Source: Cryobacterium psychrotolerans (GTDB lineage: Bacteria; Actinomycetota; Actinomycetes; Actinomycetales; Microbacteriaceae). From it: a stretch of 64,000 nt of DNA. The position numbers and the translations under genes were made by a program. The notes below the pieces were generated by a model, which was not told where the DNA came from, did not search any database, and was given only the letters and a program-made list of their open reading frames with translations. The stretch lies in the NCBI RefSeq assembly GCF_900101115.1, contig NZ_FNFU01000007.1, forward strand, positions 1-64,000. The letters run 5' to 3'. This document shows, piece after piece, positions 4,287 to 11,018 of this stretch; within the stretch, counting starts at the first letter, position 1; each line of letters begins with the position of its first letter.

Positions 4287-5038
4287 GCGATCCTCGTCGG
4301 CGCCGCCTGGGCGACCGGTTTGATCGTGATCAGGTCGAGGTTGACGTGTGCCGGGCGCTCCACGCTCGAGACGATCGTCTCGGCGATGTCCTCCGCAGTG
4401 AGCGGGTTCGGAATGTTCTCGTACGCCGCGACCGCCTTCTCCGCGTCGCCGCCGAAGCGCACGAGGCCGAATTCGTCGGTCTTGACCATGCCGGGGGCGA
4501 TCTCGATCACCCGGATGGGTTCGCCGTTCAGTTCAAGGCGAAGCACCTCCGTCATCGCGTGCGCGGCGGACTTTGCCGCGTTGTAGCCGCCGCCGCCGAG
4601 GTAATTGACGTGGCCGGCGATCGAGGTGATGGTCACGATGTCGGCCGAGCCGCCGCCCGACGAGATTCCGGCACGCAGGAGGGGCAGCAGGGCGCTGGTC
4701 ACCCGTTTCACGGCGAGCACGTTGATCTCGAACATCCAGGCCCAGTCCTCGATCTTCGAGTTCTCGACGCTGTCCAGGCCCAGGGCGCCGCCGGCGTTGT
4801 TGACCAGGGCGTGCACCGGGCCGGTCGCGGCCAGGAAATCGCGCAGCGCGTCGACGTCGGCCTGCCGGGTCAGGTCGGCCGTGAAGACCTGTGCGCCGGT
4901 CTCCTCGGCGAGCGCCGCGAGACGGTCGGCACGCCGCGCGACCCCGACGACGTCCCACCCTCGAAGCCGGAACAGGCGCACGCTGGCCGCCCCGATTCCC
5001 GAACTTGCACCGGTTACGACCACTCTGCGTGTACCCAT
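4259..5038 (-). CDS. SDR family NAD(P)-dependent oxidoreductase
   Basis: A 259-residue classical short-chain dehydrogenase/reductase. The cofactor motif TGASSGIG is at 9-16, NNAG at 80-83 and the catalytic set S139-Y152-x3-K156 (GYNAAK). An arginine pair after the second strand (GVARRADR) suggests NADP(H). The tail PTRIARGELRMRD lies in the 35-bp repeat also found on the far side of the WD40 gene. I start at MGTRRVVV (5038), because the longer reading frame adds a non-family extension overlapping the divergent acyltransferase. Only 29 bp separate the two divergent starts, so their promoters must overlap. It resembles broad-specificity hydroxy-acid or serine dehydrogenases; the substrate cannot be named. 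Confidence 0.88.
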   Translation of the reverse strand: MGTRRVVVTGASSGIGAASVRLFRLRGWDVVGVARRADRLAALAEETGAQVFTADLTRQADVDALRDFLAATGPVHALVNNAGGALGLDSVENSKIEDWAWMFEINVLAVKRVTSALLPLLRAGISSGGGSADIVTITSIAGHVNYLGGGGYNAAKSAAHAMTEVLRLELNGEPIRVIEIAPGMVKTDEFGLVRFGGDAEKAVAAYENIPNPLTAEDIAETIVSSVERPAHVNLDLITIKPVAQAAPTRIARGELRMRD

Positions 5039-6168: not shown

Positions 6169-6236
6169 TCGCAGCGGCGTCCGCCCCGGCAAATCGGTCG
6201 GTCCGGCGCAGATGTGACGCCGTGTTTCGGGCACCG

Positions 6237-6265
6237 TTGCCGGTGTGGACCTGCGTGTTTAGGCT
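6237..6265 (+). promoter_or_regulatory. Putative sigma-70-type promoter of metY
   Basis: TTGCCG (6237-6242), a 17-bp spacer and TAGGCT (6260-6265) fit the TTGnnn/TAnnnT pattern of actinobacterial housekeeping promoters. The metY ATG at 6322 follows with AAGGGAG at 6306-6312. I see no SAM-riboswitch fold in this leader. Confidence 0.45.
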
Positions 6266-6321
6266 CGCTGCAGAGCGATGGACGGTCCACGCCCGCCCCG
6301 GACCCAAGGGAGACCCACCTC

Positions 6322-7512
6322 ATGAGCGATAACACTTCAGCCTGGAAGTTCGAAACCAAGCAGGTTCACTCCGGCGCCAGGCCCGACCCGGTCACCAACG
6401 CGCGGGCCACGCCGATCTACCAGACCACCTCGTACGTGTTCAACTCCGCGCAGCACGCCCAGAACCTGTTCGCGCTGGCCGAGTTCGGCAACATTTACAC
6501 GCGCATCCAGAACCCCACGCAGGCGGTCGTCGAAGAGCGCGTCGCGGCCCTCGAGGGCGGCACCGCTGCGCTGCTGCTGGCGTCCGGCCAGTCGGCGACG
6601 ACGTTCGCGGTGCTCAACATCGCCCAGGCCGGCGACCACATCGTGTCGTCCAGCTCGATCTACGGCGGCACCTACAACCTCTTCAAGTACACGCTCGCCA
6701 AGCTCGGCATCGAGACGACGTTCGTGGAGAACCAGGACGACGCCGACGAGTGGCGCCGCGCGGTTCGCCCCAACACCAAGCTCTTCTTCGCGGAGACCAT
6801 CGGCAACCCGAAGATCAACGTGCTCGACATCTCCCTCGTGGCCGATGTCGCCCACGAATCGGGCGTGCCGCTGATCGTCGACAACACGATCGCCACCCCG
6901 TACCTGATCCGCCCGTTCGAGCATGGCGCGGACATCATCGTGCACTCCGCCACGAAGTTCCTCGGCGGGCACGGCGCGGTCATCGGCGGCATCGTCGTCG
7001 ACGGCGGAAAGTTCGCCTGGTCGAAGAACGTGGAGAAGTTCCCCGGACTCACCGAGCCCGACCCGTCGTACCACGGCGCCAGCTACACGGGCGCGGTCGG
7101 CGACGGGATCGCGTACATCATCAAGGCGCGCGTGCAGCTGCTGCGCGACCTCGGCGCCGCGATCGCGCCGGCCAGCGCCTGGCAGCTCATCCAGGGCATC
7201 GAGACCCTCAGCCTCCGGGTAGAGCGCCACACGCAGAACGCCCAGGAGATCGCCGAGTGGCTCGAGAACCACGCCGCGGCGTTCGGGCGTGTACACACTG
7301 GAACCGGCGAGCGAATCCACCCTCGGCAACACGCTCGAGTCGGTCAAACAGCGCTTCGGCCGGATGGGGCTGGAGGTGGACTGGCACGGCAGCGGGCAGG
7401 TCCTGCTGCCCAGCACGGTCCTCGATTCCTTCCTGCTCGCCCTCGGCGAGTGCCTGGAGAACGTGCGTCGCCACTCCGGCGTCAAACGTGCCGATGTGAC
7501 GATCACGGATGA
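6322..7512 (+). pseudogene. metY: O-acetylhomoserine sulfhydrylase MetY, missing its 3' third
   Basis: The first ~317 codons are a normal PLP-dependent O-acetylhomoserine/O-acetylserine sulfhydrylase: FETKQVHSG, YTRIQNPTQ, the PLP lysine in SATKFLGGHG (K212), and finally LSLRVERHTQNAQEIAEWLENH. The family then continues with PDV..V.YPGL and a ~110-residue C-terminal domain. Here homology stops at about 7272 and the frame runs 79 codons through the next gene's DNA in the wrong frame, ending at 7512. A normal protein is ~430-440 residues. The missing part holds much of the small domain and the active-site lid, so the product should be inactive. metX, the usual neighbour, is absent. Either a real deletion fused it to the kinase fragment or the contig is misjoined. 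Confidence 0.85.
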
Positions 7513-7696
7513 CGACACCACCGTCCGCGCGATGGTCACCGACGCCGGGGTCGGCTTCGACCTCGACGGAGTCGGCAGCGAACGCCTGGGCTTCACCGAG
7601 TCGGTCGTGGCCAGGCTCCGGGACGTCGGCGGCAACGCCCGCCTGTTCTCGTCGCCCGGGTCGGGCACGACGGTTGTGCTCGAGGTGCCCAAGTGA
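7289..7696 (+). pseudogene. Sensor histidine kinase, ATPase-domain remnant lacking its front
   Basis: This frame encodes only the C-terminal HATPase_c domain of a NarL-system (LiaS/DesK-like) histidine kinase: N box ECLENVRRHSG, G1 box DAGVGFD, then SERLGFTESVVARL and FSSPGSGTTVVLEVP. No dimerisation/phospho-acceptor histidine region or sensor domain precedes it. Reading upstream of GTG 7289 enters metY DNA in another frame. The stop overlaps the GTG of the next gene (GTGA at 7693-7696), so the original operon order kinase, membrane protein, regulator is intact downstream of the break. A 135-residue ATPase domain alone cannot autophosphorylate, so the two-component pathway looks disabled unless the break is an assembly artefact. 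Confidence 0.8.
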
Positions 7697-9015
7697 GCCG
7701 CCCGACCGTGGAACCGGGCGCGGTCATTCCGGGCGCGGTCGCTCCGGGCGCGGTCAGCCGTGCCGCCGTGACCCCCGGCGCCGCAGGCCAGGCCCCAGCG
7801 AGTCCCGGCGCCACACGCCCGGACGCGCGCCGGAGCCTGCGCCGGACGGGCCGCATCGTCAAGGCCGCCCGCGCCGACCCGAACGGCCTCGGCGGCCGGC
7901 ACCTGGGTGTCGGACTGGTCTTCAGCGGCGGATCGATCGCCGTCTTCCTGTTCTGGCGCTTCGTGGTGCAACTGCCCGGCACGCCGAGCCCGCTGCCGAG
8001 CCTGGCCGCCTGGCTGATCCTGCTCATCGCTACGGTCTTCACGGTCGCGGTCGTGCAGAGGTCGTCCACGCGGATGCCGCCCTGGCTGTTCACGTTCGCG
8101 CTCATCACCGGCGCGGTTGTCGTCATCCTCGACCTGGCCGGGTCGGCCGGCCGGTCCTACGCCGACGTCTACCCCACCGCTGCCCCGGCCGTCGGGGCGT
8201 TGCTCACCGGCCTGGTCACCCTGCGCGAGCCCCGCGATGTGCTCGCGGCAACGGGGGTGCTCGGTGTGCTGACGGCCGGTGCGGCACTCCTCGAGGACCG
8301 CGCCAGCCTGCTCACCCTGGCCCCCGAAATCCTCAGCATCGCCCTCGGCATCGTCCCGCCGGTGCTCGGCGTGATCATCGTGCGGTCGTTTCGGCGGATG
8401 GTGGAGCTGGAACTGGACCTGGTCCTGGTGCAGAGCACCGTCTCCCAGCCCCGCTACGCCGTCGGCATGCTCGCCTCGGAGGAGCTGGCCCGGCTCGACC
8501 TGGACGCCGAGACGCTCCTCGACGACGTCGCGCAGGGGCGCACTCCCCTGCCGCTGGCACCGGAGACCTCATCCACTGCGGCTTCCCTCGCGACGCAGCT
8601 GCGGCTCCACCTCATCAACGGCCGCACCGAGACCTGGCTGCACCACGCCGTCACCGAATCGGAGTTCCTCGGCCCGTCCGTGACGGTGCAGGACCCATCC
8701 GGGCTCGCCGGGCTGCTGGCGCCGAGCCAGCGCGATGCCCTCCTGCTCACGATCTGGCTGTTGATCAGCGACACCGCCCGGACCGCGTCGACGGTTTCGC
8801 TCACTTTGGGGCCGATATCGCCGACCCATGGCACGGTTTCTCGCAAGAAGGTCCGATTCCCGATCGAATTGATGACGACAGGTGTGCCACGCCGCCGAGT
8901 AGACCCCGAGACGTGGCAAGCTATCCGAATAGTCGGCCCTCACGTCGATACCATTCGGGACGGAAGTCTTCGAGTGGATATCGAATGCAGTGTCGACAAT
9001 CCCGCGGACGCCTAG
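7693..9015 (+). CDS. Six-TM protein of a two-component operon, unknown function
   Basis: A 440-residue protein I cannot assign to a family. Residues 5-40 are a low-complexity PGAV/PGA repeat, coded partly by three 15-bp units. Hydrophobic segments near 72-92, 104-122, 131-150, 163-179, 187-201 and 213-231 form a membrane domain. About 210 soluble residues follow, with a helical region (LELDLVLVQSTVSQPRYAVG) and a weakly conserved end. The position resembles histidine-kinase-like partner proteins that lost catalytic boxes: I see no H, N or G box. Its GTG overlaps the kinase-fragment stop, and the regulator starts 45 bp downstream. It probably senses a membrane or envelope cue for that pathway; this is inferred from context. 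Confidence 0.7.
   Translation: MSRPTVEPGAVIPGAVAPGAVSRAAVTPGAAGQAPASPGATRPDARRSLRRTGRIVKAARADPNGLGGRHLGVGLVFSGGSIAVFLFWRFVVQLPGTPSPLPSLAAWLILLIATVFTVAVVQRSSTRMPPWLFTFALITGAVVVILDLAGSAGRSYADVYPTAAPAVGALLTGLVTLREPRDVLAATGVLGVLTAGAALLEDRASLLTLAPEILSIALGIVPPVLGVIIVRSFRRMVELELDLVLVQSTVSQPRYAVGMLASEELARLDLDAETLLDDVAQGRTPLPLAPETSSTAASLATQLRLHLINGRTETWLHHAVTESEFLGPSVTVQDPSGLAGLLAPSQRDALLLTIWLLISDTARTASTVSLTLGPISPTHGTVSRKKVRFPIELMTTGVPRRRVDPETWQAIRIVGPHVDTIRDGSLRVDIECSVDNPADA
7714..7758 (+). repeat. Three 15-bp in-frame tandem units (PGAV repeat)
   Basis: Three consecutive units begin CCGGGCGCGGTC and differ only in their last three bases. They encode PGAVI, PGAVA and PGAVS near the N-terminus of the six-TM protein. 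Confidence 0.85.
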
Positions 9016-9060
9016 GATTCCCAAGTGGCCTACCGGGCTCAGAGGCAGTTGGAGGAAGCA

Positions 9061-9717
9061 GTGACGCACAGCAACGGTCCCATCCGCTTGGCCCTGGTCG
9101 ACGACCACCGAATGCTCCTGGGTGCCCTCACCGAGTGGATCCGCGGCGCTGCCGACGACATCGACATGGTGGCCGCCGTGACGACCTGGCCGGAGCTGCT
9201 CACCCACCCCGAGTTCCCGGTCGATGTCGTGCTGCTCGACCTCGACCTCAAGGACAACATCCCCGTGTCGCTGAAGATCTCGACACTGAAGACGACGGGC
9301 GTCAAGACCGTGCTCATGAGCACCTACTCCGAGCCGGCCCTGGTGCGGGAGGCACTCGCCGCCGGCGCGCTCGGCTACCTCGTCAAGAGCGAAGAGGCCG
9401 GCATGATCGTCGAGGCGATCCGCGCGGCCTACAACGGCGAATCGTACATCTCGGCCGAACTCGACCTCGCCCTCAACGCCGGCTCAGACGGGGACTCCCC
9501 TCGCCTGAGCGCGCAGGAGCGCCGCGTGATGGCACTCTACGGCGCCGGTGAGCCCGTGAAGGCCGTGGCCTACCAGCTGGGCATCTCCGAGGAAACGGCC
9601 AAGTCGTACCTCAAGCGCATCCGGGAGAAGTACCGCCTGGCCGGCCACGACGTCGGCACGAAGGTCGCCCTGCGCAAGCGCGCCATCCGCGACGGAATCC
9701 TGCTCCAGACCGACTAA
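9061..9717 (+). CDS. LuxR/NarL-type response regulator
   Basis: A 218-residue two-component regulator. The receiver domain covers ~8-125, with acidic pair D14-D15 (LVDDHRMLL), phospho-acceptor D60 (VDVVLLDLDL), and the switch threonine and lysine in STYSEPALV and GYLVKS. A LuxR helix-turn-helix follows at ~150-212 (LSAQERRVMALYGAGEP, LGISEETAKSYLKRIREKY). GGAGGA at 9051-9056 places the start at GTG 9061; an upstream in-frame GTG at 9025 lacks such a site. It follows the kinase remnant and the six-TM protein on the same strand. With the kinase front gone, its phosphate source is uncertain. Its stop overlaps the convergent MFS gene stop by four bases. Confidence 0.9.
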   Translation: MTHSNGPIRLALVDDHRMLLGALTEWIRGAADDIDMVAAVTTWPELLTHPEFPVDVVLLDLDLKDNIPVSLKISTLKTTGVKTVLMSTYSEPALVREALAAGALGYLVKSEEAGMIVEAIRAAYNGESYISAELDLALNAGSDGDSPRLSAQERRVMALYGAGEPVKAVAYQLGISEETAKSYLKRIREKYRLAGHDVGTKVALRKRAIRDGILLQTD

Positions 9718-11018
9718 CCGCCCGGCAAGTGTGCCCGTAACCAGGTGGCCGGCACGACCGTGATCGCCGCGGTTCCGTAGGGCACGTGCACGCCCAACCG
9801 CCGGCGTGAACGGTCGATGGCGAAGGTCACGACCGCGAGCAGGATGCCGAGCCCGCTGAGCCCAAGCCCGATCCACACCGGGGCGACGTACCCCAGGCCG
9901 GCCGCGATGGCGACGCCGCCGAGGTAGGCACCGAGGGCGTTTCCGACGTTGAGCGCCGAGTGGTGCAGTGCCGCGGCGATCGACTGGCTGTCGTGCGCGA
10001 CATCCATCAGCCGGGTCTGGATCGTCGGCCCCAGGGCCGCAGCCGCCGCGCCGACCAGGAACACGCCCGCCAGCAGCCCGGCCAGGAATCGCGCGGAGAG
10101 CGCCAGCGCGGAGAGCGCGACCACCAGGACGCCGAAGGCTCCGTACATCGTGCGCCGCACGCTGCGGTCGGCGAGCACGCCGCCGACCAGGTTGCCGATG
10201 GTCATGCCGGCGCCGATAACGACGAGCACGATCGGCACGGCCCAAGCGGCCAGGCCGGTGACGTCCATCACCAGCGGGGAGACGTAGGTGTACACGGCGA
10301 AGAGGCCGCCGAAACCGATGGCGCCGATCAGGAGCGCCAGCCAGACCTGCCGCCGGCCGAGCGCGCGCAGTTCTCTCCGGATGCTGCTGTGCGGGTTCCC
10401 TGGCTGGAAGGGGACGACCAGGGCGACGGCCAGGAAGGTGAGCGCGAAGATGCCCGCCACGGCGAGGTACGCCACGCGCCATCCGGCGACCTGGCCCAGC
10501 CAGGTGATCGCAGGGACGCCGATCACGTTGGCGATGGTCAGGCCGGAGAGCACCACGGCGATGCCCCTGGCCCGTTTGCCCGGCCCCATCAGGTCGGCCG
10601 CGACGAGGGAGGCGATACCGAAGTAGGCGCCGTGCGGGAGCGCCGCGACGAACCGAGCCGCGAGCACCAGCCCGAAGCTCGGCAGCAGGGCGGAGGCGAT
10701 GGTCCCGAGCGTGAAAGCGACGAGCAGGGCGAGCAGCAGTTTCTTCCGCGGCCAGCGGGTTGCGGCCGCGGCGATGGTCGGCGCCCCGACGACGACGCCC
10801 AGCGCGTAAGCGGTGATGAGCCAGCCCGCCTGCGCGTTGGCGACATCCGGCTGCGCCGCGTGAAGCCCCGGCAGCAGGTCCGCGGCGAGGTTGGGCAGCA
10901 GGCCCATGGCCACGAACTCGGTCGAGCCGATCGCGAAGCCGCCCAGGGCCAGGGCGAAGAGGGCAAGACGAATACGGGCCGGCGACAGCTGCGTCGGCCC
11001 GTGGGTGGAGGGGGGCAT
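9714..11018 (-). CDS. MFS transporter, DHA1-type drug/sugar efflux family
   Basis: A 434-residue twelve-helix major facilitator. The family opening GGFAIGSTEFVAMGLLPNLA (residues ~28-47) and LVAADLMGPGKRARGIAVV in the first half match the AraJ/YdhP/CmlR branch of proton-driven exporters for drugs or sugars. The central loop QPGNPHSSIRRELRALG separates two six-helix halves. GGAGGC lies just before the ATG at 11018. It ends by overlapping the stop of the convergent response regulator and is followed upstream (11028) by the thiamine-binding gene, ten bases away on the same strand, so the two could be cotranscribed. Substrate unknown. Confidence 0.85.
   Translation of the reverse strand: MPPSTHGPTQLSPARIRLALFALALGGFAIGSTEFVAMGLLPNLAADLLPGLHAAQPDVANAQAGWLITAYALGVVVGAPTIAAAATRWPRKKLLLALLVAFTLGTIASALLPSFGLVLAARFVAALPHGAYFGIASLVAADLMGPGKRARGIAVVLSGLTIANVIGVPAITWLGQVAGWRVAYLAVAGIFALTFLAVALVVPFQPGNPHSSIRRELRALGRRQVWLALLIGAIGFGGLFAVYTYVSPLVMDVTGLAAWAVPIVLVVIGAGMTIGNLVGGVLADRSVRRTMYGAFGVLVVALSALALSARFLAGLLAGVFLVGAAAAALGPTIQTRLMDVAHDSQSIAAALHHSALNVGNALGAYLGGVAIAAGLGYVAPVWIGLGLSGLGILLAVVTFAIDRSRRRLGVHVPYGTAAITVVPATWLRAHLPGG

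Follow-up and report, generated by a model that had tools for sequence, protein, structure and literature searches.

The metY-metX gene pair is known from the acetylhomoserine sulfhydrylation route to homocysteine. Deletions between short repeats are also well described, and these microhomology-mediated events proceed by Ku/LigD or alternative end joining or by replication slippage. When a structural difference of this sort exists within one culture, it leaves a bubble in the graph of a de Bruijn-type assembler. The locus analysed here, from a Cryobacterium genome assembly of 45 contigs and 3.25 Mb, shares features with each of these systems. It lies in a window of 64,000 nucleotides, the whole stretch of DNA under analysis, which represents bases 1-64000 of contig C31 (167,874 bp). 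As in the described metY-metX pair, the MetY half encoded in the window matches PRK07812 and TIGR01326, the MetX product of the same assembly scores above the cut-off of the NCBIfam model MetX_acetyl_MTB, and the gene order is the same in all 41 loci of relatives that could be read. Unlike the described pair, the genes are split here over two contigs, C31 and the much shorter C7. The likeness to an assembly-graph bubble consists in two paths that run between the same branch words and overlap by 95 bp at either end; the longer of them is left as a stand-alone contig (C7). The likeness to a microhomology-mediated deletion, for which the locus is a candidate, consists in an 8-bp direct repeat at the breakpoints of which one copy is kept, together with the presence of a Ku gene.

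The features around the junction are collected in Table 1. Specifically, an open reading frame at positions 6214 to 7512 includes MetY, and from the ATG at 6322 the metY gene is normal up to residue 317. The preliminary description of this DNA had MetY homology stopping near position 7272, and this holds exactly, with H317 as the last MetY residue and its codon ending at that base. The MetY piece (window positions 6322-7509) matches the Cys_Met_Meta_PP profile over the first 272 of its 381 positions and nothing beyond, and the best eight NCBIfam models end at positions 307-325 of 418-439. In each of the 25 NCBIfam rows shown, out of 45, the score of this half stays under the curated cut-off, as a quarter of the protein is missing. 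On the other side, the junction is followed by an open kinase frame, with a GTG at 7289 as the first listed start and a stop codon that ends at 7696, giving an open reading frame of 135 aa. Its only domain is HATPase_c, and the related HATPase_c_2 model scores below its cut-off. This profile match bears out the earlier view of the kinase remnant as an ATPase domain that lacks the phospho-acceptor box and is read in a different frame from MetY. The sharp break between the two genes likewise stands, but the spacing of about 15 bases that had been proposed does not, as the end of MetY identity and the start of kinase identity fall within one and the same 8-bp span.

Table 1. Features at and beside the metY-kinase junction (window coordinates).
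Feature	Position	Strand	Evidence or remark
5' part of metY, 317 of 443 residues	6322..7272	+	PF01053 positions 1-272 of 381; remaining 126 residues on contig C7
Out-of-frame fusion ORF, 396 aa from ATG 6322	6322..7512	+	MetY residues 1-317 plus 79 residues of the kinase gene in the wrong frame
95 bp equal to the C7 end on the metY side (left branch word in the assembly graph)	7182..7276	+	exact match
Microhomology CCACGCCG, 8 bp, once per end of the missing 4,864 bp	7269..7276	+	
95 bp equal to the kinase-side end of C7 (right branch word)	7269..7363	+	exact match
3' part of the sensor kinase gene (HATPase domain)	7269..7696	+	PF02518, 9.1e-08; front on C7
440-aa protein, no Pfam match, immediately behind the kinase	7693..9015	+	relatives cover residues 1-440 or a large part
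LuxR-type response regulator	9025..9717	+	PF00072 and PF00196 above cut-off

The DNA that is missing at this junction is present elsewhere in the same assembly. A search of the genome with the MetY piece returned paralogues and, in addition, a 100% match of residues 288-317 at one end of C7, a contig of 5,046 bp. Read on its minus strand, C7 carries in order the end of MetY, metX, a DUF4389 protein of 514 aa, a small membrane-type protein of 227 aa without a Pfam match, and the front of the kinase. The MetY part runs from residue 288 to the end and covers PF01053 positions 241-380, and the kinase part represents the first 286 residues. These include LLHDTVLATL with its H at residue 213; Pfam assigns the piece no domain, and we read the LLHDTV motif as a putative phospho-acceptor box from its letters. 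On this strand the first 95 bases of C7 are identical to window positions 7182-7276 and the last 95 to positions 7269-7363, with zero mismatches and in the same orientation, so that the missing length is 5,046 - 182 = 4,864 bp. In a search with the whole of C7, for which 40 of the 391 first-look candidates were scored, the list of 5 matches contained no further long one. Both alternative forms of the locus, with exact ends in common, thus coexist in one assembly, where C31 follows the path that lacks 4,864 bp and C7 the intact one.

The junction is therefore what had been supposed of it, the product expected of a deletion that joins neighbouring genes, given that metY and the kinase lie in one syntenic stretch in relatives; and the lost stretch does include metX and the front of the sensor, both of which are located on C7. 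What fails is the prediction that the strain lacks this route to homocysteine and has a blind two-component pathway. Rather than a fixed loss, we find metX at C7:3212-4408 and both the kinase front and the MetY tail on the same contig, and a genome-wide loss is not supported because the missing DNA is present in the same assembly. Loss of the homocysteine route and a blind pathway would concern at most part of the sequenced cells, unless C7 is a contaminant, which is unlikely. Under that explanation the deletion would be fixed in the strain and C7 would derive from a contaminating intact relative, as would be in keeping with the deletion being carried by C31 and with the contamination of 0.16% listed for this genome. 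However, C7 ends exactly at both breakpoints, its pieces and the window flanks diverge alike from the nearest relative (83-91% and 86-93%, respectively), more contigs of that kind would be expected and none is found among C5, C6 and C8, and the genome would otherwise be without metX. We consider a fixed deletion with a contaminant C7 highly improbable.

When both ends of all 45 contigs were compared (C1-C4 are N throughout, and hits among them were ignored), exact 95-bp overlaps were also observed for C5/C34, C5/C28, C8/C9 and C8/C36. Given this recurrence, the assembly graph most likely had a word length of 95. The count of word-length overlaps left out identical or overlapping contig ends of other sizes, which are also present (42, 238, 248, 287, 300 or more bases), end-in-contig matches of 49-58, 94, 100, 261, 296 and 300 bases, and the 93-94 bp matches from the whole-contig search with C8 (C19, C9:207-300, C44, C39). 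In de Bruijn-type assemblers, a contig whose two ends both overlap their neighbours by one word length stops at branch points, and without words across the direct metY-kinase junction the branch would be absent and C7 would be merged into its neighbours. Since the ends of C7 are branch points, the way such assemblers work makes it very likely that sequence of the deleted form was in the read data and that this path was chosen for C31. The assembler may have been SOAPdenovo-like, a weak guess from the record names. When the four small contigs C5-C8 were each searched over their full length, C7 alone was seen to link a contig to itself: the overlaps of C5 and C8 are with different contigs, and C6 terminates in a repeat. 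The ends of C6 (L115, positions 1-323 and 4659-4981) are inverted copies, 97% identical, of a roughly 320-bp sequence that is also found at the ends of C16, C23, C29, C33, C34 and C38, and is thus a repeat that breaks the assembly. The same contig contains, at L115:4498-4624, a repeat some 67 bp long, near-palindromic and REP-like in appearance, which has a few dozen scattered matches in many G000 contigs at 79-92% identity, mostly on both strands, with none listed in the window.

These observations bear directly on whether the direct junction is an artefact, arising either as a library chimera, through a template switch at the 8-bp repeat, or as an error of the assembler or scaffolder, in which case all cells would be intact and C7 would belong between the two halves of C31. 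The preliminary description had already cautioned that a misjoin would look the same, and we accept this as right. The existence of C7 itself is in line with an artefact, a few chimeric reads could have produced the direct path, and the contig-end overlaps other than 95 bp indicate that the assembly included steps beyond the plain word graph, which could have produced a false join. Yet a single rare chimera should lose to the true path, whereas C31 runs through the deletion and omits C7. There is also no second such bubble among C5, C6 and C8, which were searched whole, and the left-to-right orientation differs from that expected of a mate-pair circularisation product. An artefact of one of these kinds is quite possible, but we hold it somewhat doubtful.

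The breakpoints themselves are compatible with either origin. The repeat CCACGCCG stands at both ends of the missing stretch with one copy kept, and identity of at least 8 bp was observed at 109 of 176,203 random point pairs of the locus, a frequency of 0.0006. There is no further homology in the flanks of the repeat, where 6 and 4 of 20 flanking bases match. Ku is encoded in the genome, so end joining is available to the cell. The microhomology fits joining within the cell and equally template switching in the tube, and in the latter respect it favours an artefact too. A mobile element at the junction was considered and rejected, as homology is limited to 8 bp and no transposase family was recognised in the five C7 proteins scanned, two of which gave no family at all.

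The arrangement in relatives was read from 42 named loci that contain a relative of the 440-aa protein, 41 of them from Cryobacterium and one from Glaciibacter superstes. All but one of these loci reach over metY, and comparison with relatives, as had been suggested, shows that the order metY, metX, kinase, 440-aa protein and the strand are identical in 41 of 41, the usual order of the genus being metY-metX-kinase-440-aa protein-response regulator. The metY gene is a single open frame in each of these 41 loci and the kinase in 40. In L034 (the C. breve chromosome) the kinase front and tail are in different frames at about 8690-9854, possibly owing to a frameshift or a base error. In L032, L034 and L037 about 2 kb of extra DNA separates metY from metX. 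In 19 of the 41 loci (L026-L066) we detected a DUF4389 gene that lies between metX and the kinase, indicating that the deleted stretch includes a naturally variable part; the gene was not detected in the other 22, where metX ends 74-130 bp ahead of the kinase match. The 42nd locus, L025 from C. tagatosivorans, is truncated, as its contig begins within the DUF4389 gene. In G006, which we take to be that same C. tagatosivorans genome, the metY-metX side stands at the end of another contig and the join is not shown there.

Among same-genus genomes, the kinase is matched in 35 of 36, with open frames of 391-482 aa. Proteins of exactly the short shapes seen at the junction had been raised as something that relatives might carry, but the short MetY occurs in none of the 41 readable named loci and the short kinase in none of these 35 genomes. 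A naturally short MetY or kinase was rejected accordingly, as the relatives are full length, and so was a deletion already present in relatives, as it is absent from all 41 readable named loci. A protein search with the C7 kinase piece returned three kinases of 396 aa (P0121-P0123) that differ from it at 1 to 3 of 286 residues. The first of these, P0121, differs from C7 at 1 of 286 residues and from the window tail at 0 of 134. The contigs that encode the three kinases (3,270, 13,807 and up to 368,717 bp) correspond in length to none of those of the present assembly. With the 135-aa kinase tail as query, no protein above 91% identity stood among the best 120 of 122 matches, and neither that search nor the 36 same-genus genomes yielded a second record of the truncated form. 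This absence of a second record in the searches made argues against a mixed culture and for an artefact, as do, on the artefact side, the intact order in all 41 readable loci and the near-identical intact kinases in other records. The listings and opening parts of abstracts returned by a literature search contained nothing on this locus.

We also searched the genome for other components of the methionine route. The earlier suggestion that a second complete metY and metX be sought is answered in part: a second full-length MetY-like protein is encoded on C32, and the only copy of metX found is the one on C7. The C32 protein scores above the TIGR01326 (OAH/OAS sulfhydrylase) cut-off and is 51% identical over residues 8-315. 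A C22 protein scores above the cut-off of PRK07811 (cystathionine gamma-synthase), and its neighbour looks to us, by our own reading of the sequence, like a cystathionine beta-synthase. Weaker MetY-like matches were found on C30 and C35, and no match to a metA-type gene (PF04204) was found in this genome. Enzymes of the C32 and C22 types still require acylated homoserine. The second MetY on C32 was therefore rejected as a replacement, with metX present only on C7 and no PF04204 match.

Taken with the graph structure, we think it probable that part of the culture carried a real deletion beside intact cells. Of two alternative forms of this locus, the window would then show the deleted one, and the stretch would have been lost in part of the sequenced culture by end joining or by slippage between the two copies of CCACGCCG. 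In deleted cells the MetY fusion would be dead, MetX would be absent and the kinase would be reduced to a fragment that lacks the phospho-acceptor part; their response regulator is predicted to have a partner kinase that lacks its front. Such cells are predicted to need methionine, since C7 is the only place where metX was found and a metA-type gene was not detected, and external methionine or homocysteine would have to be supplied. On rich medium the cost of the deletion would be small. A stronger version, in which a standing polymorphism exists such that a large share of the cells lost metX, MetY function and the neighbouring sensor in a single microhomology event and obtain their methionine from intact sister cells or the medium, seems to us unlikely.

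Neither a real deletion in part of the culture nor an artefact should surprise a specialist, and the case is an ordinary one. It illustrates how a draft genome can show a ‘broken operon’ while a small contig elsewhere in that assembly contains the missing piece. Annotation from the window alone would mispredict a blind kinase and an auxotrophy for methionine in this strain. Should the deletion be real, the locus would be an example of the loss of a biosynthetic gene within a stock.
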